Shown here piece after piece: positions 106 through 51,218 of a stretch of 52,356 nucleotides of DNA. Position numbers and translations under genes: made by a program. The notes under the pieces were generated by a model that searched no databases, was not told the origin of the DNA, and saw nothing but the letters and a program-made list of their open reading frames with translations. Origin of the DNA: a virus; IMG/VR virus record IMGVR_UViG_3300046794_000144, positions 1-52,356 of that record. The stretch is one strand, 5' to 3'. How positions within the stretch are numbered: position 1 is the stretch's first letter; each line of letters begins with the position of its first letter.

Positions 106-153
106 AGAAAACCTCCTAAGTGCTGTAGTTGCTGGGTGAGGCAGGTTTTCTGT
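104..153. other. Inverted repeat next to attL core
   Basis: Perfect 11-bp arms ACAGAAAACCT (104-114) and AGGTTTTCTGT (143-153) enclose a 28-nt loop, starting exactly where attL/attR identity ends. There is no T-tract, so it is a poor terminator. It may be an arm-type integrase or RDF binding region of attP, or a structured leader of the integrase mRNA. The rest of 154-265 shows no gene I can support. Confidence 0.4.
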
Positions 154-265
154 GGGTTTCGTCTGCATTTCTGAATATCTCATTTACCGCTATTCACTAC
201 CTTTTTTGCTTATTGTTGCTATGGTGTTGCTGAAATTCAGCAAGAGCCAACAGGAATTCAGCAAA

Positions 266-1408
266 ATGGGATCTATCACCGTCCGCAAGCGCAAAGATGG
301 ATCTGTCGCTTACAACGCGCAGGTCCGCATCATGCAGAAGGGCGTCACAGTTTATCAGGAAAGTCAGACGTTCGATCGCAAGGCTACGGCGCAGGCTTGG
401 ATCAAGCGAATCGAAACTGAAATGTCCGTTGCTGGCGCAATCGAAAAGTCAAAACGGACAGGCGTCACCGTCAAGGAGATGATTGATCTCTACCTTGATG
501 AGTACGAGAAGCTTCGCCCGTTAGGGAAAACCAAGCGGGCCACACTATTGGCGATAAGCAAGACGTGGCTGGGTAGCGTGGAAGATAAGGACCTGACGAG
601 TCAGAAGATCGTCGAGTGGGCCAACTGGCGAATGCAGGAAGACGGGGTTCAGGCTCAGACCGTCGGTAACGACCTGGCCCATATTGGAGCCGTGCTATCC
701 GTTGCGCGCCCTGCGTGGGGTTATGAAATCGATCCAATGGCTATGCCGGATGCGCGCAAGGTTCTGCGAAAGATGGGCGCCGTCACACGAAGCAAGGAGC
801 GAGATCGACGTCCGACCCTGGCCGAGCTGGACACTCTCCTCGAGTACTTCTGTGCTATGCGGGATAGACGAAAGCAAGAAATCGACATGGTTCGAGTAAC
901 AGTGTTTGCGTTGTTCTCGACGCGACGTCAGGAGGAGATAACCCGTATTCGCTGGGACGCCATGGACGAGGCCGGCCAGCGGGTGCTGATTACGGACATG
1001 AAGAACCCCGGCCAGAAATACGGCAATGACGTCTGGTGCCATGTGCCCGACGAGGCGTGGCGGGTGCTTCAGTCGATGCCAAAAGTGGCTGATGAGGTAT
1101 TCCCGTATAACTCCCGATCGATATCGGCGTCATTCACGCGGGCCTGTCTGTTTCTTGAGATTGATGACCTGCACTTTCACGACTTGCGACATGATGGCGT
1201 CAGCCGGCTTTTTGAAATGGGGTGGGATATCCCGAAAGTGGCCTCCGTGTCCGGACACCGGGATTGGAATTCGATGAGGCGCTATACGCACCTGCGGGGG
1301 AATGGAGATCCCTATAAAGGGTGGCCATGGCTGGAGAGTGTGATATCGGGCCCCGTGATCGAGGCCCAGAAGAGGATCAAGAAACGCGCCGAAGACCGCC
1401 GCGCATAA
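266..1408 (+). CDS. int: Tyrosine-type site-specific integrase
   Basis: Integrates and excises the prophage by recombining attP with attB. The 380-aa product starts at an ATG preceded by CAGGA about 10 nt upstream; upstream in-frame starts would add an unlikely hydrophobic extension. The N-terminal arm-binding-like domain (VRKRKDGS, residues 5-12) precedes a core-binding and catalytic domain. Visible catalytic residues are R220 or R221 (STRRQEE), H305-x-x-R308 (HDLRH), H331 (GHRDW) and the nucleophile Y340 (RRYTHL). It lies immediately inside attL and converges on the PrtN-like gene, overlapping it by 32 bp. A decayed homologue sits beside attR. Confidence 0.95.
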   Translation: MGSITVRKRKDGSVAYNAQVRIMQKGVTVYQESQTFDRKATAQAWIKRIETEMSVAGAIEKSKRTGVTVKEMIDLYLDEYEKLRPLGKTKRATLLAISKTWLGSVEDKDLTSQKIVEWANWRMQEDGVQAQTVGNDLAHIGAVLSVARPAWGYEIDPMAMPDARKVLRKMGAVTRSKERDRRPTLAELDTLLEYFCAMRDRRKQEIDMVRVTVFALFSTRRQEEITRIRWDAMDEAGQRVLITDMKNPGQKYGNDVWCHVPDEAWRVLQSMPKVADEVFPYNSRSISASFTRACLFLEIDDLHFHDLRHDGVSRLFEMGWDIPKVASVSGHRDWNSMRRYTHLRGNGDPYKGWPWLESVISGPVIEAQKRIKKRAEDRRA

Positions 1409-4037: not shown

Positions 4038-4471
4038 GCGGCCACCTGCTGCTCTGCCGGATTGCGGATCAAGCCTAGGCGAACCCCTTCATCGCGAACA
4101 ATCAGAATGTCGTCGCCATAGCCCCAAGGATTCTCGAATCCGTTATCCATCGTTGGCTGGAAATACCCGTAGCGCATCGTCGACCCGTTGAGTACGAACG
4201 CGCCGATAGACCCGGCCAGGCTCTTCAGGGTGCCGCCGTGCGAGAAACCATCCCACCGGCCTTCCTTCGCAACGTTAATGCGGGCGCCGGTGTAGTCATC
4301 GAACAGCCAGACGATGTTGCGGCGTTCGTTAAGGGCAAGGTAGGCGTCGTGGCCAGCGCCTTTGTTACGAAAGAAGCGCCGACCACAATTGGCAATCACC
4401 ATGATGAATTCGTTCGCTGTGATGATTCGGTCTAACCGTTGCTGGCCGATGGTTTTGTTTTCTGTAGGCAT
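4034..4471 (-). CDS. Hypothetical phage protein
   Basis: 145 aa from the ATG with AAGGA upstream; an in-frame ATG at 4492 lies inside the upstream hairpin and is less likely. Aromatic and glycine-rich centre (WDGFSHGGTLKSLAG, NGFENPWGYGDD). Family not recognised. A GC-rich stem-loop (4484-4498) sits just 5' of the RBS. Confidence 0.6.
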   Translation of the reverse strand: MPTENKTIGQQRLDRIITANEFIMVIANCGRRFFRNKGAGHDAYLALNERRNIVWLFDDYTGARINVAKEGRWDGFSHGGTLKSLAGSIGAFVLNGSTMRYGYFQPTMDNGFENPWGYGDDILIVRDEGVRLGLIRNPAEQQVAA

Positions 4472-5306: not shown

Positions 5307-5504
5307 ATGAGCGCGAAAACCGATGTTGAGGCGATACGGCTGATAGGCGATGAGGTTGTGCGGCTACTCATGCTTCCCGAGGAAAGGCTTGAGGTTGAGG
5401 TCCGCCATGGGCTCAAGCTGATTGCTGACCTGGCTCGATGGCGTGACCTTGCTTATGGGGTAGAACCTCGCGCCTCTGGTAGGTCTTTGTCAGGTCCGCG
5501 TTAA
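5307..5504 (+). CDS. Possible small rightward protein antisense to RT end
   Basis: 65 aa, beginning MSAKTDVEAIRLIGDEVV and helical throughout (LMLPEERLEVEVRHGLKLIADLARW). It fills the only sizeable gap in the leftward block (5214-5412), then overlaps the last 92 bp of the reverse transcriptase on the other strand. AAAGGG lies about 11 nt upstream. It may be a real small gene, or the 5' remnant of a gene truncated when the DGR entered. Confidence 0.35.
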   Translation: MSAKTDVEAIRLIGDEVVRLLMLPEERLEVEVRHGLKLIADLARWRDLAYGVEPRASGRSLSGPR

Positions 5505-6624
5505 CTGTGTTGCCGCGCTTGAGCACAACATTCGCCAGGGTGGCGCGGTCCTTTTGACTGTGGCTGGCCTGACTGAGCAGGCCGAAGTAGCTGTTGGCGG
5601 TCTCGCGCAGATCCTCGGTCGGCGCCGCGGTGGTACGCTTCAGCGCTTGGGCAAGTGACCGCTTGCGGGTGGTGCGCCGCCAGGGCTTGATGACGTGCCC
5701 AACGAAGTCGACGCCCCGGTCCACGGGCTGCAGGATCGTCTTCGTGGGGTTCAGCTTGGCGCCGAGCCTTGGCAGGAACGCTTCGACCTCGGCCAGCCAC
5801 TGGTTGAGCTGCTGCGGCGACTCATGCAGGAGCACGAAGTCATCGACGTACCGGATGTAGTGCTTGGCCCGCAGTGTGTGCTTGGCGAACTGGTCCAGGG
5901 CATCGAGGTAGACGTTGGCGAAGAACTGCGACGACAGGTTGCCGATTGGCAGGCCGAGGTGAGCAGGCTGCGCAACCAGGCGCTTGTGCTGCGGTACCCG
6001 GTTGAACAAGTGCGCCGGGCTTCTGGTCTCGTAATCCTCTCGGGGGTCGTGCATGAGTATCTGCGTGGCCAGGGCCAGCCACCAAGGTTCGGTTATCTTC
6101 GCGGCCAGTTGCTTGCGGAGCACTGCCTTGTCGATAGCGACGAAGAAGTTGGCCAAATCGAGCTTGAGATACCAGCAAGGCTTTGACCAGTTCTGCGAGG
6201 CGCTGCGGATCTTCGATTCAAGGCGCTTGGCGGCGTACAGCGTGCCGCGCCCTGGGATGCACGCGCAACTGTCCGCTATGAAGCTGGCGTAGAAGCGCGG
6301 TGCCACATGGTTGTACAGCAGGTGGTGGACGACGCGGTCCCGAAAGGCTGCTGCCCATACTTCCCGGGCTTTCGGTCGGGTGACTACGAAGCAGATAGAT
6401 CGGCCTGGCCGGTAATTGCCGGCGGTCAGGTCGTTGTACAGCTCGAAGAGATTCAGTTCCAGTTCCTGCTCGAACCGCCGGGCGCTCGCCGTGTTGCGCT
6501 TGCGTCGTCGGCAGTCGTAATACGCTTGAACCAGATCCTCGAACTGTAAGGGTGCAACACTGGAATCTGCGGACAGGGCGCACGCTGCGCTCGTTGTTCT
6601 TGTTGTCGTTGTTCTGGTTGCCAT
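5413..6624 (-). CDS. DGR reverse transcriptase
   Basis: Reverse-transcribes the TR RNA with errors at adenines, producing cDNA that replaces VR sequence. 403 aa. Palm motifs: YLKLD with the first catalytic Asp at 156, YVDD at 259-262, and IGNLSSQ at 227-233. The last matches the IGxxxSQ signature separating DGR RTs from retron and group II RTs (QGxxxSP). No integrase or maturase domain is seen. The only usable ATG I find lies inside the TR, in a different frame from the VR reading frame, so the first about 20 residues are TR-encoded. It is the last gene of the DGR, after avd and TR, as in the Bordetella BPP-1 DGR. Confidence 0.95.
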   Translation of the reverse strand: MATRTTTTRTTSAACALSADSSVAPLQFEDLVQAYYDCRRRKRNTASARRFEQELELNLFELYNDLTAGNYRPGRSICFVVTRPKAREVWAAAFRDRVVHHLLYNHVAPRFYASFIADSCACIPGRGTLYAAKRLESKIRSASQNWSKPCWYLKLDLANFFVAIDKAVLRKQLAAKITEPWWLALATQILMHDPREDYETRSPAHLFNRVPQHKRLVAQPAHLGLPIGNLSSQFFANVYLDALDQFAKHTLRAKHYIRYVDDFVLLHESPQQLNQWLAEVEAFLPRLGAKLNPTKTILQPVDRGVDFVGHVIKPWRRTTRKRSLAQALKRTTAAPTEDLRETANSYFGLLSQASHSQKDRATLANVVLKRGNTVNADLTKTYQRREVLPHKQGHAIEPGQQSA

Positions 6625-6666
6625 CGCTAAAGTCCATGTTGTAGGCGTTGTTGGCTGAGAACTGCG
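6566..6666 (-). repeat. DGR template repeat (TR)
   Basis: 101 nt between avd and the RT. Read on the minus strand, it is packed with AAC/AAY codons in the VR frame (SANNAYNMDFSDGNQNNDNK), which maximises diversity when A is randomised. It aligns without gaps to VR1 (7259-7359) and VR2 (7953-8053). VR1 differs at 13 and VR2 at 12 sites, all at the 33 coding-strand adenines and none at the other 68 positions. The right-hand identical stretch ending GTCCGCAGA is the likely IMH. Confidence 0.95.
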
Positions 6667-6836
6667 ACCTGCCGTGCTATCTACATCGCCCCGCCGAAGG
6701 AGCTCCGATCAGCGGGGAAACTGCGCCGGACCTTCGCGGACGCTTTAGACCGTAGGTATCCGTGGGTGCGCCTGGCGGTGGCCTTTTGGCCAGCGGCACG
6801 ACCAGATTCAGCGCACAGAAGAGAGGGCCTTGACCC

Positions 6837-7193
6837 TCAAGTAGCGGGCGCGGTTGCGGAGCTTCTTTTCCAGGCATTGGCCTGTTTGCCCACCGATGCA
6901 GTGAGCTTCATAACCTTTGCGTGCTGCGGGATGCTCATGAACTGCATGTCCACCATCGTTCGCAGCAACTGATTGATGACCTGAATACTTTCCAGCAGCG
7001 TATTCAGATGAGGGCGCTTATCGCGGGCCATGTTTGCTCGGCCGATCATCCTCAGAACCTCAAGGCACTCGTCCAGAATCTTGACGCCTACCAACTGCTT
7101 CAAATCGCGCGGAATGTTCCGCACTAACTGAATCGCGACGCCAAGTAGTCCCTCGGCTGATTTGTGGATATCCAGATCCATGTGCATGGCCAT
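6837..7193 (-). CDS. avd: DGR accessory variability determinant (Avd)
   Basis: 118 aa, all-helical and moderately basic (NIPRDLKQLVGVKILDECLEVLRMIGRANMARDKRPHLNTLLESIQVINQLLRTMVD). This fits the four-helix-bundle Avd family, which forms a pentamer that binds the RT and the TR RNA and is needed for adenine mutagenesis in BPP-1. It sits between VR1 and TR, the canonical place. AAGGGA precedes the first of three clustered ATGs. About 170 bp between it and the TR hold no gene; this segment is probably part of the structured DGR RNA. Confidence 0.85.
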   Translation of the reverse strand: MAMHMDLDIHKSAEGLLGVAIQLVRNIPRDLKQLVGVKILDECLEVLRMIGRANMARDKRPHLNTLLESIQVINQLLRTMVDMQFMSIPQHAKVMKLTASVGKQANAWKRSSATAPAT

Positions 7194-7211
7194 GCGAAGT
7201 CCCTTAAAGCG

Positions 7212-7227
7212 AGTCGCTGCCGCGACT
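7212..7227 (-). other. Hairpin downstream of VR1
   Basis: AGTCGC and GCGACT arms with a 4-nt loop (GGCA on the coding strand), 31 nt past the VR1 end. In BPP-1 a short GC-rich hairpin or cruciform with a 4-nt loop just downstream of VR promotes target recognition. A weaker GGCC-GTCA-GGCC hairpin (7911-7922) lies 30 nt past VR2. Confidence 0.5.
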
Positions 7228-7243
7228 TAAATGAATGATTGAA

Positions 7244-7852
7244 TTACTGAATAAGTTCTCTGCGGACAGGGCGCACGCCGCGCTCGAGGCCCTTGTAGTC
7301 GCTGTCCTGGCTGCCATCGCTAAAGTCCATGAAGTAGGCGTAGTCGGCTGAGAACTGCGTACTCGACACATACCAACCGGTACCAAATGCCTCCGATCCG
7401 CCCTCTTGAAATTCCGTCAAGGCGGTCTGAGCGGGATAGGTGTCGGTGTATGGGTAGCCGACCGGTACGCTGGATGGGTTGTCCCCGTCGCGCCACGAGC
7501 AATAGTTTTCCTGCTTGGTCGGTTTGAGGTGTCGGTATTGCAACTCTTGTACGTCACGCGCCGGGACACCCCAGTCGGCATGCCCATCAATGACCATGGC
7601 TACCACCTGTTGTGCGAGCTCGCTGCCGGCCGCTGCGAAAGCCTCAGTGTTCGAGCGACTGTCGGTGTAGCTGCGGGCGCCGGCAACATCGACGCCGTAG
7701 CAGCCGATGACACCGCGAAGCTCGAAAGCCTTTGGCGCTTGGATATTTCGGTACAGCTTGCCATCTTCCTGGGTAATACCTATGAAGTGTCCACCGCCAT
7801 AGACCTGACCAATTACGAGATCGAGTTGCGAAGTAGCTGCCAATGCGTTCAT
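7244..7852 (-). CDS. DGR target protein 1 (C-type lectin-like, VR1)
   Basis: 202 aa. The last about 38 residues (from SSTQFSADYAYFMDFSDG to VRPVRRELIQ) are the VR1-encoded variable region. The layout, with a C-terminal variable segment that starts after a Trp/Tyr-rich stretch (GTGWYVSSTQFS) and ends VRPVRR, matches CLec-fold DGR targets. Variable positions relative to TR include Asn to Asp, Tyr, Phe, Ser, Gly and Leu. I see no signal peptide, lipobox or membrane segment. RBS AGGAAG. It lies after a terminator-like hairpin that separates it from target gene 2. Binding partner unknown. Confidence 0.9.
   Translation of the reverse strand: MNALAATSQLDLVIGQVYGGGHFIGITQEDGKLYRNIQAPKAFELRGVIGCYGVDVAGARSYTDSRSNTEAFAAAGSELAQQVVAMVIDGHADWGVPARDVQELQYRHLKPTKQENYCSWRDGDNPSSVPVGYPYTDTYPAQTALTEFQEGGSEAFGTGWYVSSTQFSADYAYFMDFSDGSQDSDYKGLERGVRPVRRELIQ
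7259..7359 (-). repeat. DGR variable repeat 1 (VR1)
   Basis: Gap-free 101-nt match to the TR (offset 693) with 13 substitutions, all at TR adenines of the coding strand. The most 3' substitution (A to G, Ser to Gly in ERGV) bounds the IMH to about the last 20 nt. Confidence 0.95.
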
Positions 7853-7876
7853 GGGTGCTTCCTATTTTTCGGGCAA

Positions 7877-7898
7877 CAAAAAAGGCGCTGGTGCGCCT
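7877..7898 (-). terminator. Intrinsic terminator between the two DGR targets
   Basis: On the minus strand AGGCGC-ACCA-GCGCCT is followed by a T6 run. It lies between the stop of target gene 2 (7941) and the start of target gene 1 (7852), so leftward transcripts may be attenuated before VR1, avd, TR and RT unless antiterminated. Confidence 0.7.
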
Positions 7899-7940
7899 GG
7901 TGTCGTTGATGGCCTGACGGCCTGATTGAAGGAATGAGGA

Positions 7941-8543
7941 TTAAATAAATCGTCTGCGGACAGGGCGCACGCTGCGCTCGCTGGTCTTGTAGGCGTAGTG
8001 CTGGGTGCCAACGCTAAAGCCCATGTGGTAGGCGAGGTTGGCTGAGAACTGCGAGCTCGTGTAGTAATAAACGTCCTGGTCGAACTTGACCGGGCAGTTG
8101 AGCCAGCCCTGATGCATCTCGGCGGCGGCGCCAAGGTAGAAGTCAGTGTGACCGTCGGCGGTGTATTCGGAAGCGGCGATAGCTGCAGGGTGGCTGCCTT
8201 CTTCCAGCAGGATCTTGGTGTTGGCCAGGCCGTCGCGCTTGTCGGTGGCCTTGGATGTTTCGCCGTGGCGACCCCATACGTAGCGCCCAGCATCCTTCGC
8301 GGCGAAGATCAGGTAGTGCTCTGGCACGTTGCCGTGGGCTGCGACGTAGCCGCCGTTGATACCGCCTTCACCGGGCCAGTACTCGCCATATGCAGGGGCG
8401 TCGGCCGATGTCAGCGGCTGAACATTCGTCGCCGGTGGTAGAGTCTGGGTGAGCATGCCGAGCGCGAACAGCTGCACCATGCGCTCTGCGGGGCCTTTGA
8501 TCTTGAAGTCATCAATTTCCACTGAAATCATTTTGGCTTTCAT
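7941..8543 (-). CDS. DGR target protein 2 (C-type lectin-like, VR2)
   Basis: 200 aa. The C-terminal about 38 residues, from SSQFSANLAYHMGFSVG to VRPVRRRFI, are VR2-encoded; the rest shares little obvious sequence with target 1. Centre: YGEYWPGEGGINGGYVA and YVWGRHGE, aromatic and glycine-rich as in CLec-type targets. The N-terminus (MKAKMISVEIDDFKIKG) is not a signal peptide. GAGGTAAACGAA precedes the ATG, 20 nt after the ndpA stop, so it shares the early leftward transcript. It is separated from the tail genes by about 36 kb, so a tail-fibre role cannot be read from position. Confidence 0.9.
   Translation of the reverse strand: MKAKMISVEIDDFKIKGPAERMVQLFALGMLTQTLPPATNVQPLTSADAPAYGEYWPGEGGINGGYVAAHGNVPEHYLIFAAKDAGRYVWGRHGETSKATDKRDGLANTKILLEEGSHPAAIAASEYTADGHTDFYLGAAAEMHQGWLNCPVKFDQDVYYYTSSQFSANLAYHMGFSVGTQHYAYKTSERSVRPVRRRFI
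7953..8053 (-). repeat. DGR variable repeat 2 (VR2)
   Basis: Gap-free 101-nt match to the TR (offset 1387) with 12 substitutions, all at TR adenines. Most substituted sites or bases differ from those in VR1, so the two repeats were diversified independently from one template. Confidence 0.95.
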
Positions 8544-8562: not shown

Positions 8563-9570
8563 TCAGGCGGCGGCGCGCTTGAGTTGTTCAGTGAGTTGCG
8601 TTGGCAGGCCTCGCAGTGTCAGGGTCCCGCCTTCCTGGTCAAACTTGATCTTGTCGCCCAGCAGGTGCTGCTCGAAGCTGATTGACAGCCCTTCGGCCCG
8701 GCCGGTGAAGCGCCGGAATTTGTTGATGGTCTTTTTGTCCGGCGGCAGGGTCTCAGAAAGCCCGTAGTCCTTAGCCTTGATGAAGTCGTAGAAACTGCGC
8801 GGCTGCTCTTCGTCGATCAGTCCTGATAGCTCATCGAGGGTGATCGGCTCGCCCAGCTTTGCCTGGGCCATGGAGTAGCTGACCAGTGCGTGTGTCTTCT
8901 CGCGGGCCGATTCTTCTGGCAGATCCTCGCTTTCAACAAAATCGCTGAACGCCTTGAGCAAGGTCCGGGTTTCGCTTGGGCCGTCGATCCCTTCCTGGCA
9001 GCCGATGAAGTCGCGAAAGTACTCGCTGACCTTGCGGCCTTGCTTGCCCTTGATATACGAGATGTACTGCTTCGACTGCGGATTACTCTTCCATTCGCTG
9101 AGGTTGATACGTGAAGCCAGGCGGATATGATCAAGGTCCAGGCGCTTGACCGTCATCAGGTTCAGCTCTTCGGTCATGGTCACCGCTTCAGTTTCCTGCA
9201 CTAGGGCAATGACCAAGTATTCGGTCAGGCCTTGCTGGTAATGGCAGAAGAGGGCGTGCCCACCGGTGGTTAGGTTCGACTCTTCCATAAGCTTGGTCAG
9301 GTGATCGGCGGCGGTGACGCTGAAGTTGAAGAAGTCGAAGCTGCCGGCCAGGTATTTGCCAAGCCACCCGCTAAGTGGGTGAGCGCCTGACTCTGCATGA
9401 AAGAAGCCCCAGGCTTTGCCGGTGGCGGCGTTATAGCTTTCGTTGAACTGGCTCATCAGGTCATCGCGGGCCTGGCTTTCGACCTGCTCCGCACCGCCGA
9501 GGTGAAGAATGGCCGGGCTGCCGTCGGGCTTCTTGTCGATCTTGTGGATTACGCTGTGGAGTACAGGCAT
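8563..9570 (-). CDS. Nucleoid-associated protein (YejK/NdpA family)
   Basis: 335 aa, full length for the 37-kDa nucleoid-associated family. Typical elements: N-terminal [18 protein letters not shown], the middle [17 protein letters not shown], then [17 protein letters not shown] and [24 protein letters not shown]. The host homologue binds DNA and associates with the nucleoid. A phage copy in the early recombination block could protect or organise phage DNA or interfere with host chromatin; this is inference. RBS GAGGTAAACGCA. It is directly upstream of DGR target 2. Confidence 0.85.
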
Positions 9571-10429: not shown

Positions 10430-10903
10430 TCAGGCACCGCTGAGGTGGTGGTGAGGGGCAAAGGGGATGTCGTCGAAGTTATCGTAGTCAGGGCCAGACG
10501 TACCTTGCTGATTCTGTTGTGGCGCCGACTTTTGTTGGCGTGGCTGCTGGCGCTGCTGCGACTGTGGTGCGCTCTCGGCCTGGGGCGGCGGCCCTGCGAA
10601 CTTGATCACGATGATCCGTCCAGTCAGCTTGAAGCCTTCTCCGCCAGCGGTCTTGGTGAAGGTCTCGACGTGCGCGTCGTCGATGGTGAAGTGGACCTGC
10701 TGGCCTTTGACCAGGTACGGCGCCAAAGCTTCGGCCTGTTTGCCCCAAAGTGTTGCATCGACCCACTGCGTAGGTTTTTTGTTATCCGTCCCTTTGCGAC
10801 CGTACTCGCAAGCGATGGCCAGGTTGATGACAGCAGTACTGTCCGGGGTGTAGCGAAGTTCAGCGTCACGACCAATGCGGCCGACGTCGGTAAGTGTTGG
10901 CAT
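10430..10903 (-). CDS. ssb: Single-stranded DNA-binding protein
   Basis: 157 aa. OB-fold pattern of SSB: GRIGRDAELRYTPD, VINLAIACEY, PTQWVDATLWGKQAEALAPYLVKGQQV, FTKTAGGEGFKLTGRII. A Gln/Pro-rich linker and the acidic tip DNFDDIPF follow. The tip is not terminal: nine more residues (APHHHLSGA) follow, whereas it is normally the extreme C-terminus that contacts partner proteins. It is placed with an exonuclease and an annealing protein, the standard phage recombination set. Confidence 0.9.
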   Translation of the reverse strand: MPTLTDVGRIGRDAELRYTPDSTAVINLAIACEYGRKGTDNKKPTQWVDATLWGKQAEALAPYLVKGQQVHFTIDDAHVETFTKTAGGEGFKLTGRIIVIKFAGPPPQAESAPQSQQRQQPRQQKSAPQQNQQGTSGPDYDNFDDIPFAPHHHLSGA

Positions 10904-10912
10904 GAGATGTCC

Positions 10913-11530
10913 TTAAGCGGCAATGCCGAGCACGCGATTCATGCGCTCGTCGAGGATTTCGTAGAAGGTTTTGACGCGCTCGGCGAGCTTCCTGATAAGC
11001 GCTTCGTCGCGGTAGGCCCGCTTGACGAAAAGAGGCATGCCCGGCCAGTAGCTCACGAAGTCGATCCACTCGCGCTCCGAGACCCACAGGCCACCCTGGC
11101 ATTGGGCGATATGGTCTTTGGGGATCTCGTCGGAGAGGATCACTCCGACCTGGAACTTCGGCAGTTTCGTTTTGATCTCGCACAGGCCGTTGTCGTCGAT
11201 CAGTGAGTCTGGCGAATAGCCGACGCCGTGGTTCAGGATGATTCCGACCTGGCTGGTGGTCACTCCCGTCTGAGATTCGAAGAGCTGGCGACCAATGCCT
11301 TCCAGTTCGTGGCCGCGCTCGGTATGGCGATTGCCCTGGAAGGGGTCGGCGGCTTCGCCAGTGATGCGCTCGCCGATGAGTGTGTCCATGTAGGTGAATG
11401 CACCCACGCCGAAACCTGCCTCGCCCTTGCCGTTGACCAGCAGGCTGTCCAACTCGGAGCAGGTCACGATACCCAGGCGAAGATCCAGCCACTCCTGAGT
11501 GCCTTGCTCGACGTTACTGATGATCTTCAT
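10913..11530 (-). CDS. YqaJ-type (lambda Exo-like) exonuclease
   Basis: 205 aa from MKIISNVEQGTQEWLDLRLG; upstream in-frame residues are out-of-frame ERF sequence. Motifs: QGTQEWLDLRLGIVTCSELD at the N-terminus, ERGHELEGIGRQLFE, and the metal-binding EIKTK preceded by the acidic SLIDDNGLCE of the PD-(D/E)XK core. It digests 5' ends of dsDNA to give 3' overhangs for the annealing protein. It overlaps the ERF gene by 17 bp. Confidence 0.9.
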   Translation of the reverse strand: MKIISNVEQGTQEWLDLRLGIVTCSELDSLLVNGKGEAGFGVGAFTYMDTLIGERITGEAADPFQGNRHTERGHELEGIGRQLFESQTGVTTSQVGIILNHGVGYSPDSLIDDNGLCEIKTKLPKFQVGVILSDEIPKDHIAQCQGGLWVSEREWIDFVSYWPGMPLFVKRAYRDEALIRKLAERVKTFYEILDERMNRVLGIAA

Positions 11531-12296
11531 TGGCTTGGTCCCCGGCAGGTTTGCTGTTTTGGGTGGCGGACTTCGTGAGCATTGCCAGAACTTGGTCAAA
11601 CAACGATTTTTCAACCGATGCCGGGGTTCCGTGCAGTTTCTTGAATGCTTCTTTTGCTTTGTCGCTGCACTTCTCCAGCAGCATGGCCAGTTGAGCAGCC
11701 TGGGCTGAGGTGACACGGGGCGTTACTTGGGCGGCCGGGCCGTTGCCGTCGTCGTCTTCGCCGGTAGTGGTAAAGTTCAGCAGCAGGCCGGCGGTGTACC
11801 GCTTGCCGTAGCTGACGCTGGAAGCCACCGCTTGGACGCCGTTCTTGCTGCCAGATGCATCTACCGGCAGTACGATCGATGTAACCTCGCGATGTCCGCC
11901 CCGGTGACTGAGGACACCCTCAACCTCGATGCCTTTCTCATTGCGCGGCGTACGGAAGGTGATGGCGAAACCGTACTTGGCCATCGCTGGCTTGATCATC
12001 TCGTTCACGTCCTCCCAGAGCGCATAAGTGCTTTGGATGCGGCCGTTTTTGTCTTTGATGCCGCCACGCTCGCCGATCACAGGCAATTCTTCCTGCATTC
12101 GGGCCAAGGCTTCGTCGTATTGCTGCTTGGCCTGTTGAGCCTGAAAGCGCTCGTGCATGAGCATCAGGCGCTCCATCTTGTCGATATCAGCATCAGGACT
12201 CATTGCCACTTGCTGGATGATCGACATGATCGTGGTGGAATCGGCTTGAATGGTCGGCAAGCGCTCGACCTCATCTGTCACTGCAAGACTACTCAT
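11514..12296 (-). CDS. ERF-family single-strand annealing protein
   Basis: 260 aa. ERF signature: KQQYDEALARMQEELPVI, STYALWEDVNEMIKPAMAKYGFAITFRTP, GVLSHRGGHREVTSIVLPVD, QAVASSVSYGKRYTAGLLLNF. It is followed by an acidic linker and a helical tail. It anneals complementary strands in phage recombination, acting with the overlapping exonuclease and SSB. Confidence 0.92.
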   Translation of the reverse strand: MSSLAVTDEVERLPTIQADSTTIMSIIQQVAMSPDADIDKMERLMLMHERFQAQQAKQQYDEALARMQEELPVIGERGGIKDKNGRIQSTYALWEDVNEMIKPAMAKYGFAITFRTPRNEKGIEVEGVLSHRGGHREVTSIVLPVDASGSKNGVQAVASSVSYGKRYTAGLLLNFTTTGEDDDGNGPAAQVTPRVTSAQAAQLAMLLEKCSDKAKEAFKKLHGTPASVEKSLFDQVLAMLTKSATQNSKPAGDQANEDHQ

Positions 12297-16905: not shown

Positions 16906-17640
16906 CTAGAAGCTCCGTCCGGTCCACCAGTAAATGATTTGTGCTAGAACTTGGATGTCGCTTTCGCGGTCGCCGGGTACGTCAATCTCTCGGTATTGGC
17001 CGTTATCCGAAATAATTGTCAGGCCGTCGAGGTTTCGCTGTATTCGTTTAACGTGGTGCTGGCCGCGCATCAAGAAAAAGTAGATTGCATCTGACTCGAC
17101 AGACGTGACGCCGGAATCTACGAGCAGGGCATCACCGTTACGGATAGTGGGCGCCATGCTGTCTCCGCGACCCGAGATCAGCCTTAGGTTGTCAGTAGAC
17201 GTGTAGACGAGGTTCTGGCGCACCCAATTGGCATCGAGGCGCATGTGCTCAACAACCATGTTCATTTCTGGTGGCTCCGTGCCAGGGCCCATAGAGGCAG
17301 CGATATCTAAGCGCTCAACCGAAATCGTCGGGCGATAGCTTTTTATTTTTTGTGCAAGCGCTTCGGGCAACCCTTCTACATCAATGACATCTGAGCCGCC
17401 TAGGCCTGGCCTGTCGAATGCGTATTCATCCAGCCTGAATTCCTTCTCCACTGCTCTAGCGAAAACCTCGCCTACGTTCTTTGCCCCAGGCTTATCTGGC
17501 GGATACAGGCACCGGGAAATGTAGTCAGGCTGCTTGCCCATACGACGAGCGAATTCAGCTTTCGCGCCATGCTTACCGATGCCGTACTGTCGGTCGATAA
17601 GTAGTTGAAGATTTGCCTTTCTGATCAATTTTATATCCAT
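16906..17640 (-). CDS. cI: CI-type prophage repressor (HTH + S24 peptidase)
   Basis: 244 aa. An N-terminal HTH (AEFARRMGKQPDYISRCLYPP, about 28-48) binds operators; the C-terminal S24 domain has S161 (GDSMAPT) and K198 (HVKRI) as the catalytic dyad. The self-cleavage site would be A115-S116 (AAS-MGPG) rather than the usual Ala-Gly. DNA damage should trigger RecA-stimulated autocleavage. Its promoter region shares operators with cro (17662-17713), giving autoregulation; it must also act 1.2 kb away at PL. It is the only clear lysogeny repressor here. Confidence 0.92.
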   Translation of the reverse strand: MDIKLIRKANLQLLIDRQYGIGKHGAKAEFARRMGKQPDYISRCLYPPDKPGAKNVGEVFARAVEKEFRLDEYAFDRPGLGGSDVIDVEGLPEALAQKIKSYRPTISVERLDIAASMGPGTEPPEMNMVVEHMRLDANWVRQNLVYTSTDNLRLISGRGDSMAPTIRNGDALLVDSGVTSVESDAIYFFLMRGQHHVKRIQRNLDGLTIISDNGQYREIDVPGDRESDIQVLAQIIYWWTGRSF

Positions 17641-48626: not shown

Positions 48627-48656
48627 AGGGGCCGTAGTAGCGGCCCCTTTTTATCA
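48627..48656. terminator. Bidirectional terminator between convergent genes
   Basis: AGGGGCCG-TAGTAG-CGGCCCCT with flanking T-rich sequence between the secreted esterase and the opposing acyltransferase. Confidence 0.8.
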
Positions 48657-50660
48657 TTTTATCAATATGCCGGGTGCATTTTTTTCGGCCCACTTAGCAA
48701 ATATCTTGGCGAGTTCGATACTGCCGAACTCCGAGTAATGTCCGTACTCATCACGGTAAAGCGGCATTCCGTCCTGTATTCCTGAGCACTTATTGTCATC
48801 GCACAGCAATGTGTTTTGATCGAAGAAGCGGACGCCCGGATGTGACCTGGATATCGATTCGATGACCGGCGCGTAAGCGAGATCAATCCCGGAGCGCTGC
48901 TCGTAGCTTATAGAGCAATCATTGATAGGGGCTTTGAATGGGCGCGCGAAGCATCCCTTGGCATCATATCCAAGCATTAGATGGGGGATGAAAACGATAA
49001 CAGATACATTCATCTGCTCAAGTTGGCCAATGTAGGTTTCTAGCCTGGTGGCGTACGCCGCATCAGGAGCTGGATTAAGCCCGTCGAGGATCGCGTACTT
49101 GACTGAGCCGGACTTTGTGATGATGTCGTTTATGAGATTCTTCTGTTGCAGTGGGCGATCGCCTGAACATGGGTGCGTTGTCAGCGGTGTGCCGGCTGGT
49201 GCAGTGTCAGGATTGGCTGGATCGCAGGTCCCAATCGACAGAATTGTGTTGTGCATGGTCTCGGGATTCTGTGCAAGTCCCGCGTACAGGTGGTTTGCAA
49301 AGCTGGTACCTATTAGCATCACAGTAGGGCTGGAGTCCTTGCTCTCCATGCAGAACCACCACCCAAAGTCAGCAGACCCTGCAAGCGGGTGCTTCGCCAT
49401 GCAGCTATCGTTCTTAGTGTATTTCCACAATGGCCCGACGAACTGGGAGTTGATCTTCTCCGAAAAGCGGATCATTGCACGATCGGGTATGCCATCCAGC
49501 TTATAAGTGACATAGCCGGCTACGCCCATGATCACCATCAGCGCGGAGAGCACAGCGGTTTTCATGCCGCTCCCCACATTTTTAAGTGGAGTTTCGATCA
49601 AGCGGAAGGTGAGCCATGCCAGAAGAACCGAAAGCGCCACTGCGATCCAGCGTATTTCAGGGGATGGCGTCCCGCTCTCTATGATCCGTGCGAACGTAAG
49701 CAATGGCCAGTGCCATAGGTATAGAGGGAAACTGATCAGCCCTACAAAGACGACTGCTTTATTGGAGAGGATGATCCGGTTGAACCAAGCATGGGGGCCA
49801 GCCGCGATAATAAGTACTGACCCGACAGTAGGAAGAAGTGCCCACCAGCCGGGGAACTGGTTATTTTTCGTGACCAGGGAGAACGCCAACACCAGCATTG
49901 CCATGCCGGAAAATGATTGAGCGTTCCGAAGGAGCTGGTTTGAGCTCCCCCTCCAGGACGGGAACAGCTTGCTTTTGTTCATGGTTACGTAGGCCAAGAA
50001 CGAACCAGTAAGAAGCTCCCAAAATCGCGTTTGCGGTGAATAGAAAACAGATACTGCATCTGTTTTTATATTGCTAATATTTAGCCAGAAAGAAATGGCG
50101 GCTACTGCAATAGTTAGGAGTAATGGGTTGAATCGTATCTTCCAGGCGGTCCATAGAATCAGAGGCCAGATTAGGTAGAATTGCTCCTCGATACCAAGCG
50201 ACCAAAGATGAAGAAGTATTTTGGTCTCTGCCGAGTTGTCAAAGTATCCAGACTCATTGAGAAGTACTATGTTTGAAACAAACGCTGTACCGCCAGCGAT
50301 GTGTTTCCCGAGCTGCATGAACTCATCTGCAAACAGAGAAAACCATCCAAACGACCAGCTTGCAAATAAGACCAGCAATAGCGCTGGGAATATTCTGTTT
50401 ACTCGTCTGCTGTAGAAAACACCAAAGCTGAATTTACCTTTTTCTAATCCACCGAAAATAATACTGCTAATCAGAAAACCTGAAATAACGAAGAATACAT
50501 CTACCCCGACAAATCCCCCCTGAATATATGAGGGGAATGCATGAAAAAGAACCACAGATAGAACGGCGATTGCGCGCATCCCATCAATATCGGGCCTATA
50601 TTTTGGGTGGTCCAGGTGTGCGCTCTTGGCCAGATCAGCCGGTGTAGAGGTAGATGTCAT
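48654..50660 (-). CDS. O-acyltransferase (acyltransferase-3 + SGNH, OafA/B-like)
   Basis: 668 aa from the ATG at 50660; an ATG at 50678 is possible. Acyltransferase-3 membrane domain: YRPDIDGMRAIAVLSVVLFHAFP, GVDVFFVISGFLISSII, RVNRIFPALL, HLWSLGIEEQFYLIWPLILW, SFPLYLWHWPLL; about ten helices. A C-terminal SGNH-like domain (about 425-668) has GTSFANHLY and DEYGHYSEFGS. It should transfer acetyl from the cytoplasm to O-antigen, a conversion gene as in phage D3. It is transcribed against the late genes and A+T-richer than its surroundings. Confidence 0.9.
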   Translation of the reverse strand: MTSTSTPADLAKSAHLDHPKYRPDIDGMRAIAVLSVVLFHAFPSYIQGGFVGVDVFFVISGFLISSIIFGGLEKGKFSFGVFYSRRVNRIFPALLLVLFASWSFGWFSLFADEFMQLGKHIAGGTAFVSNIVLLNESGYFDNSAETKILLHLWSLGIEEQFYLIWPLILWTAWKIRFNPLLLTIAVAAISFWLNISNIKTDAVSVFYSPQTRFWELLTGSFLAYVTMNKSKLFPSWRGSSNQLLRNAQSFSGMAMLVLAFSLVTKNNQFPGWWALLPTVGSVLIIAAGPHAWFNRIILSNKAVVFVGLISFPLYLWHWPLLTFARIIESGTPSPEIRWIAVALSVLLAWLTFRLIETPLKNVGSGMKTAVLSALMVIMGVAGYVTYKLDGIPDRAMIRFSEKINSQFVGPLWKYTKNDSCMAKHPLAGSADFGWWFCMESKDSSPTVMLIGTSFANHLYAGLAQNPETMHNTILSIGTCDPANPDTAPAGTPLTTHPCSGDRPLQQKNLINDIITKSGSVKYAILDGLNPAPDAAYATRLETYIGQLEQMNVSVIVFIPHLMLGYDAKGCFARPFKAPINDCSISYEQRSGIDLAYAPVIESISRSHPGVRFFDQNTLLCDDNKCSGIQDGMPLYRDEYGHYSEFGSIELAKIFAKWAEKNAPGILIK

Positions 50661-50750
50661 CGGTTGCCGTAGCTCCATTGTTCTTTCGCCCCATCCCCGG
50701 GGCGGCAACATGCTACCCGACTCACGCCATTTAGCGAATTTTTGAATAAT

Positions 50751-50777
50751 CGGCCCGCCACTGAGCGGGCTTTTTTT
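50751..50777 (+). terminator. Terminator before endolysin, copy B of repeated element
   Basis: CGGCCCGCCACTGAGCGGGC plus T7, identical to 44844-44870. Downstream GCCTGGAG supplies the endolysin RBS; upstream copy A has GCCTCGGGG. Confidence 0.85.
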
Positions 50778-50792
50778 CGCCTGGAGAAAAGT

Positions 50793-51218
50793 ATGCCGAT
50801 CACCGAAACCCGTGGGGTACGCAACCGCAACCCGGGCAACATCGATTACAACCCGGCCAACCAATGGCAGGGCCAGCTCAAGCCTGATCCAGCTATTGAG
50901 AAACGCTTTGCCCGGTTCGACACGCCAGAGAATGGCATTCGTGCCTTGGGCAAGTTGCTGCTGACCTATCAGCGCAAGCATGGGCTCAAGACGGTGAAGG
51001 CGATTATCAGCCGGTGGGCACCGTCGGTGGAGAACGACACGGCGGCCTATGTGCGTGCCGTGGAGGCGAACACCGGCACTAAGCCGGGCGCTGAGATCGA
51101 TCTGACCCAGGAGCCGGTCATGCGCGGCTTCGTCAAGGCGATCATCCACCACGAGAACGCAGGGTATGCCTATCCTGATGCGGTGCTGGCAGAAGGCGTG
51201 CGCAGGGCGCTGGCATGA
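50793..51218 (+). CDS. Endolysin (P5-like muramidase/transglycosylase type)
   Basis: 141 aa. RGVRNRNPGNIDYNPANQWQ and FDTPENGIRALGKLLLTYQRKHGLKTVKAIISRW match the phage structural protein P5/lytic-transglycosylase-like group. It lacks a signal peptide, so release depends on the holin. It overlaps Rz by 4 nt. Confidence 0.82.
   Translation: MPITETRGVRNRNPGNIDYNPANQWQGQLKPDPAIEKRFARFDTPENGIRALGKLLLTYQRKHGLKTVKAIISRWAPSVENDTAAYVRAVEANTGTKPGAEIDLTQEPVMRGFVKAIIHHENAGYAYPDAVLAEGVRRALA

Follow-up and report, generated by a model that had tools for sequence, protein, structure and literature searches.

The window analyzed here is the whole 52,356-base viral record IMGVR_UViG_3300046794_000144, and its minus strand carries a diversity-generating retroelement (DGR) whose template repeat (TR) is preceded on the 5' side by a structured RNA of the family RT-15. 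A conserved strand of this RNA, GAAUCUG (X), covaries with CAGAUUC (X') at the TR 3' end, so the resulting helix, X:X', is predicted to close TR into a loop whose 3' end is held by RT-15. The cassette runs in the order target 2 with its variable repeat (VR2), target 1 with VR1, avd, TR and the reverse transcriptase (RT), and the presence of a real and complete DGR in a temperate Pseudomonas phage was confirmed. An initial annotation, made from the sequence alone, had placed a DGR in a Pseudomonas prophage and counted two targets plus Avd, TR and RT among its parts, and this was borne out by repeats, profiles and folds. The cassette is a DGR by every feature testable here, save for the hairpin after VR2. 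Coordinates given without a strand refer to the minus strand.

Adenine-Specific Divergence of the Variable Repeats

An in-register comparison of the repeats placed TR at 6567–6666, VR1 at 7260–7359 and VR2 at 7954–8053, which agrees with the three gap-free repeats of the initial annotation; the copies are in register over 100 nt. VR1 differs from TR at 13 sites and VR2 at 12, and all of these mismatches (13/13 and 12/12, 25/25 together) fall at TR adenines, with 0 at other positions. Chance was excluded and no third VR was found in the 52 kb window, since the next best 100-nt site has at least 31 non-adenine mismatches.

The relatives of RT were gathered from 80 genome contigs and 80 viral contigs and scanned for VRs with no preference for adenines, which yielded 334 VRs in 161 loci. 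Differences from TR were found at 4402 of 9685 adenine sites (45.5%) vs. 269 of 22379 other sites (1.2%). Divergence of the VRs at non-adenine sites as frequent as that at adenines, which the initial annotation had considered incompatible with its reading, was not seen, and the adenine specificity holds across the 334 VRs. Loci with identical TRs and 0/300 flank differences differ from each other at 12–19 VR sites, nearly all of them adenines (L008/L116/L121 and L131/L134/L139), so by sequence comparison the RT-15-type family is recently active in mutagenic homing. A decayed element, inactive in the phage of the window, is a most improbable reading, as the open reading frames (ORFs) and the catalytic motif are intact, RT-15 reaches a full score and there is no non-adenine drift between TR and the VRs.

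A third VR was found in 33 of the 161 related loci (L011, L015, L018, L020, L022, L027, L040, L084, L131 and L159 are among them), in a further small C-type-lectin gene located 2–8 kb upstream on the same strand. Therefore, a single TR would serve several early genes that lie scattered.

An RT of the family was present in 23 of 299 Pseudomonas genomes drawn at random. The claim that DGRs are far rarer in phages of this genus does not hold in view of this count, and a 2019 survey also lists Pseudomonas among the genera with the most frequent DGR finds (PMC6642488). Two cases of multiple copies were observed. In genome G200, RT copies with equal scores lie at C1 1485173 and 4227681, about 2.7 Mb apart, which suggests two near-identical prophages. 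In locus L087 (record G305, 59,532 bases) RT-15 occurs at 7463 and at 59256, which may reflect a pair of DGRs, a duplication or an overlap left by the assembly.

A Structured RNA on the 5' Side of the Template and the X:X' Helix

The RT-15 RNA (RF03018) at 6665–6853 is the structured 5' leader of the template. It is a full-length member of its family (cmscan, 162.2 bits against a gathering cutoff of 82, E 4.9e-40), fills the 170-nt gap between avd and TR, and the Rfam model stops where TR begins. Compensatory changes were detected in 29 of 44 pairs (44 sequences). A protein-coding role of this region was considered and rejected; a frame is open in some beta-proteobacteria but has stops in Pseudomonas, and the conservation was read as that of an RNA because the open frame is not kept there. 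All 26 above-cutoff RT-15 matches in the 299 genomes adjoin an RT match, and in the sole RT copy that lacks RT-15 the match to the query does not begin until residue 46.

The X strand (6803–6809) is conserved but left unpaired in the Rfam model, and in RT-15 it is followed by UGGU(C/U). Its partner X' (6563–6569) straddles the TR 3' boundary, being made up of the last three TR bases and then running on into the linker that precedes RT. Among 62 distinct X/X' combinations, 303 of 372 pairs at helix positions 4–9 are formed, vs. 264 ± 4.5 with shuffled partners. In the alignment of the helix 93.3% of the cells pair and five of the eight pairs (5/8) have changed on both sides. The covariation score is 0.267, vs. 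0.099 ± 0.014 after shuffling and at most 0.065 when the strands are slid; moreover, RNAalifold proposes X:X' unaided on an alignment of 41 diverse loci. The slid controls and this unaided prediction carry the weight because the helix was first spotted by eye. The pairing of X reaches 0.85 with the TR end and 0.25–0.61 with the VR ends, and X' is placed precisely on the TR 3' boundary in loci whose linkers differ in length.

The Reverse Transcriptase and Its Overlap With the Template

The RT ORF (5413–6624) matches phrog_1423 (4e-118) and carries the YVDD and IGNLSSQ motifs reported in the initial annotation, in agreement with the DGR criteria YxDD and [I/V/L]GxxxSQ. Its best solved relative is PDB 8ub7 (1.4e-37), an entry titled 'Reverse transcriptase' which we take to be the BPP-1 DGR reverse transcriptase (bRT); a group II RT reaches 6e-11. 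A position of RT outside the DGR clade, which the initial annotation had said would overturn it, is contradicted by this match. NCBIfam and PADLOC gave only sub-cutoff or general RT matches. In a tree without outgroup, midpoint-rooted for drawing, the RT-15-type and spacer-type RTs form separate groups with support 100/100, and the RT of the window represents a distinct lineage, which occurs in temperate phages of both Pseudomonas and beta-proteobacteria.

The RT ATG at 6624 falls within TR and the conserved RT begins near 6546, the first ~20–25 codons being TR sequence in another reading frame. No stop interrupts this frame within TR in 150 of 151 loci, although TR is poor in T and the remaining frames, too, are frequently open; its offset to the target frame has a single fixed value in 148 of 151. 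The linkers between TR and RT measure 15, 21, 24, 27, 36 or 42 nt, all multiples of three, and the sole real exception among the loci with an intact TR is L081, where TR and RT are out of frame. Since the frame is open, the offset fixed and the linker a multiple of three, translation of RT most likely starts inside TR, at ATG 6624 in the window. It is quite improbable that RT is instead translated from a non-AUG codon after TR and TR itself stays untranslated. Such a start could use the TTG or ATG that the linker holds in 30 of 151 loci, and in L081 a separate ATG directly follows TR, in a different frame; the rule of three and, with the caveat already given, the open frames speak against it. 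In L081 the X and X' ends also appear complementary by eye (GATAAT/ATTATC).

Four-fold synonymous sites are frozen only in RT codons 1–24, which correspond to TR (0.90–0.92), and directly after them conservation falls to a baseline of 0.46–0.58. A 3' spacer hidden in the RT coding sequence was thus ruled out, because the synonymous conservation ends with TR and leaves no place for a spacer-like RNA inside the gene.

The position of the RT start raises the question of whether X:X' and RT-15 control the translation of RT rather than template function or priming, an explanation that we consider unlikely. ATG 6624 is enclosed by X:X', and 121 of 151 loci have no start codon within the short linker, as translation control would lead one to expect. 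However, X' keeps its exact place at the TR 3' boundary whatever the linker length, and in BPP-1-type elements, too, the TR 3' end covaries, there with a strand immediately 5' to the known site of priming. The two roles are, in any case, not mutually exclusive.

The Targets, Avd and the Hairpins of the Variable Repeats

The avd gene (6837–7193) encodes a four-helix accessory protein of 118 aa. As the initial annotation had supposed for an Avd-type protein, it matches Avd profiles (PF22296, bAvd, 3.5e-12; phrog_3206, 'Avd protein of DGR', 3.5e-27), and also NF033474 (7.9e-14, under the cutoff of that model).

Target 2 (7941–8543, 200 aa) matches phrog_4245 (1.3e-25). Its AlphaFold2 model (pLDDT, the predicted local distance difference test, 90.8) has an N-terminus made up of a beta-hairpin and a helix, for which a single phage relative was found, and a C-terminus with a C-type-lectin fold that holds VR2; the best PDB match in Foldseek is 8q4e, the C-terminal domain of Legionella Lcl (E 2.9e-5). 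Target 1 (7244–7852, 202 aa) is Lcl_C/DUF1566-like (PF07603, 1.5e-5, under the curated cutoff), and its model (pLDDT 83.7) has VR1 at the C-terminus and matches 4eps and 8q4e. Both targets are thus modeled as C-type-lectin folds with the VR at the C-terminus. Across the RT-15-type family the targets measure 170–205 aa and are mostly without hydrophobic (membrane) segments. The fold of target 2 is also matched by BFVD A0A8S5QER2 (Siphoviridae sp. ctEIp38), a protein of 571 aa named as nucleoid-associated, which may combine an NA37-like domain with a C-type-lectin domain.

A candidate retrohoming hairpin, AGTCGC-GGCA-GCGACT with a GRNA loop, was found 3' of VR1 at 7212–7227 in a hairpin scan. 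In published phage DGRs a hairpin with a GRNA loop lies 4–34 bp 3' of the VR (PMC3240598), and the VR1 hairpin agrees with this range and loop type. Hairpins follow VR1 in 118 of 146 loci, vs. 5 in shuffles and 4 of 161 after TR; in most relatives their loops are other than GRNA. VR2 is followed, farther off, only by a terminator-like stem; a terminator-like hairpin with a T-run was found by pattern match between target 2 and target 1 at 7883–7898, in a region where the number of such matches is near chance.

The Early-Operon Location of the Targets

In the window, the head and tail genes are on the plus strand and the early recombination genes on the minus strand; an integrase (152–1408, plus strand) and a CI-like S24 repressor (16906–17640, minus strand) are also encoded. 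The targets belong to the leftward early operon, far from the tail module. The SSB, YqaJ exonuclease and ERF recombination genes (10430–12296) have the same strand and direction as the DGR, and the gene of an NA37 nucleoid-associated protein (8563–9570; PF04245, 1.1e-84) lies directly upstream in the same operon. A functional link of the targets to the NA37 gene was rejected, as just 2 of 131 related loci have the two side by side. Elsewhere in the window, a large ORF (48654–51152, minus strand) resembles by eye an acyltransferase-3/OafA-type O-antigen modifier and may be a lysogenic conversion gene.

The same arrangement was observed in relatives. All 334 VRs (334/334) are upstream of RT on the RT strand, the terminase is on the strand opposite RT-15 in 23 of the 23 viral records where one was found, roughly 14–26 kb away, and in Cruim01, Haboob and Magia, as annotated in GenBank, the cassette is grouped with the recombination genes. 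The initial annotation implied a role in tail tropism, which this location in the early leftward operon argues against.

The P. syringae phages Cruim01 (L162) and Aurca01 (L170), both isolated on one host strain, are about 93% identical across the targets and 99.9% beyond. Aurca01 has no avd, RT-15, TR or RT but retains both targets, whose VRs differ from the Cruim01 TR at adenine positions in 14/14 and 17/18 cases; the homology between the two phages breaks near the VR1 3' end. Because Aurca01 keeps both targets without a DGR, they would evidently be worth keeping even when not diversified. Homologues of the targets were also found in D3-like and U7 phages, where they belong to early operons, and inside the terminal repeat of PA5oct among small uncharacterised genes; the stretches inspected in these phages carry no annotated RT. 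Target 1 homologues without an RT annotated nearby occur in PA5oct (L166) and related jumbo phages, D3, PMG1, U7 and PMBT3 (L168). Since the targets are placed in early operons, are small and mostly lack hydrophobic segments, we infer that they may be early intracellular binders.

A Proposed Mutagenic Cycle

Taken jointly, these observations make it quite probable that the window carries a functional-type DGR working in the following way. A leftward early transcript would carry target 2, target 1, avd, RT-15, TR and RT, and RT together with Avd would bind the RT-15/TR RNA. Synthesis of complementary DNA (cDNA) would begin at the TR 3' end held by X:X', with errors at adenines, and would be halted by the strong RNA structure on the 5' side. 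The mutated cDNA would then replace VR1 and VR2, which would not act as templates themselves because their 3' flanks lack X'. The diversified small proteins would work within the cell at an early stage of infection or induction, as variable proteins that bind host or competitor factors, and not as tail fibres.

Several observations weigh against this proposal. When the window sequence is folded by itself, its minimum free energy does not improve on that of shuffled sequences (z +0.86), X:X' is held only in its centroid fold, and about a third of the distinct sequences have a mismatch at helix position 6. VR2 and VR3 have no GRNA hairpins. Regarding the targets, an early location is no proof that they stay out of the virion, some of the proteins that target 2 matches in structure are annotated as tail fibres, and the PMBT3 homologue is among late genes, near the lysis genes.

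The points on the targets would also suit a plain tropism-switching DGR like that of BPP-1, in which both targets would bind receptors as part of the virion and nothing would hang on the differences in the RNA. The gene order and components are the same, and in a 2021 survey the majority of the phage DGR targets from clades 1, 4 and 6 were annotated as tail proteins (PMC8144416). Nevertheless, we regard this explanation as improbable in view of the early-operon position of the targets, opposite the terminase and far from the tail module, and of their DGR-free homologues in D3-like and U7 early operons and in the PA5oct terminal repeat. The BPP-1-type spacer RNA, Phage_DGR (RF03022), is missing as well: no match was found in the window between 4000 and 10000, and none in the 299 Pseudomonas genomes (0/299), although the latter result counts little since the control likewise matched nowhere.

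Within the proposed cycle, it is conceivable, if somewhat less likely than not, that the template RNA is permuted, so that X, followed by UGGUC, positions or primes the cDNA from the 5' leader RT-15 while early-operon proteins are hypermutated to act intracellularly. By analogy, a priming topology of this kind, from the 5' side, would be closer to retrons than to the 3' spacer of BPP-1. If priming from the 5' side is true, DGRs in general would not need a 3' spacer like that of BPP-1, a point that bears on the mechanism and on compact DGR tools. RT-15, an Rfam family without an assigned role, can now be located at the 5' end of a DGR template, and X:X' represents a single base-paired switch that can be broken and repaired. 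The early-operon targets, retained by a related phage without a DGR, may point to phage hypermutation that serves intracellular conflict rather than the choice of receptor.

Comparison With Known Systems

The TR/RT overlap class, the RT-15 RNA and multi-target DGRs were each known separately before. The searchable literature yielded no description of the link among them, of a covarying helix that closes the template or of a consistent placement in the early operon. DGRs with TR overlapping the 5' end of the RT ORF were reported in 2012 as structural group 3 of DiGReF (PMC3521204), where Pseudomonas fluorescens WH6 is listed with two VRs; the description of the group as such names no RNA element, frame conservation or template-closing helix (PMC3521204). 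The Rfam model of RT-15 leaves X unpaired, and the reading given here extends it by X:X' and ties it to the DGR template.

The BPP-1 DGR (mtd, avd, TR, brt) shares with the window the gene order, Avd, a homologous RT, adenine-specific VR change and C-type-lectin targets. The match to the BPP-1 layout claimed in the initial annotation stands for the gene order, but not for the avd–TR and TR–RT spacing or for the RNA family and the side on which it lies. In BPP-1, avd abuts TR (distance 0, vs. 170 nt in the window) and the structured RNA is 3' of TR, where the 144-nt spacer between TR and brt is Phage_DGR (104.7 bits); in the window it is 5' of TR, and TR overlaps RT. In all of the BPP-1-type viral loci with a detectable TR (57/57), TR ends 143–186 nt before RT and never overlaps it. 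The RT of the window family also belongs to a separate clade, so the window lies outside the BPP-1 subtype in both its RNA and its RT. By contrast with the two or three early-operon targets of this family, the BPP-1 target is a tail protein encoded beside the tail genes.

Pairing of the TR 3' end with a conserved strand followed by UGGU(C) was nonetheless found in both types. In BPP-1-type loci (L213 1500–5000, L214–L280) the TR 3' end covaries, more weakly, with a spacer strand placed before UGGUCA, and pairing of the TR 3' end is perhaps a general DGR feature. By count, the conserved UGGUCA of these spacers would hold the priming adenine of BPP-1, Sp A56. An internal spacer adenine has been described as the priming site of BPP-1 cDNA (PMC12875486). 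By analogy, the simplest interpretation is that the same job may be done from opposite sides of TR in the RT-15-type and BPP-1-type elements, and X itself might hypothetically act as the primer.

A further likeness is with Burkholderia phage Magia (NC_070954), which has an annotated DGR with RT-15, RT and Avd. Its candidate targets, of lectin fold, are likewise encoded in the early region, where RecT and exonuclease genes are their neighbours. Unlike those of the window, the Magia candidates are shorter and one of them lies about 6 kb off.

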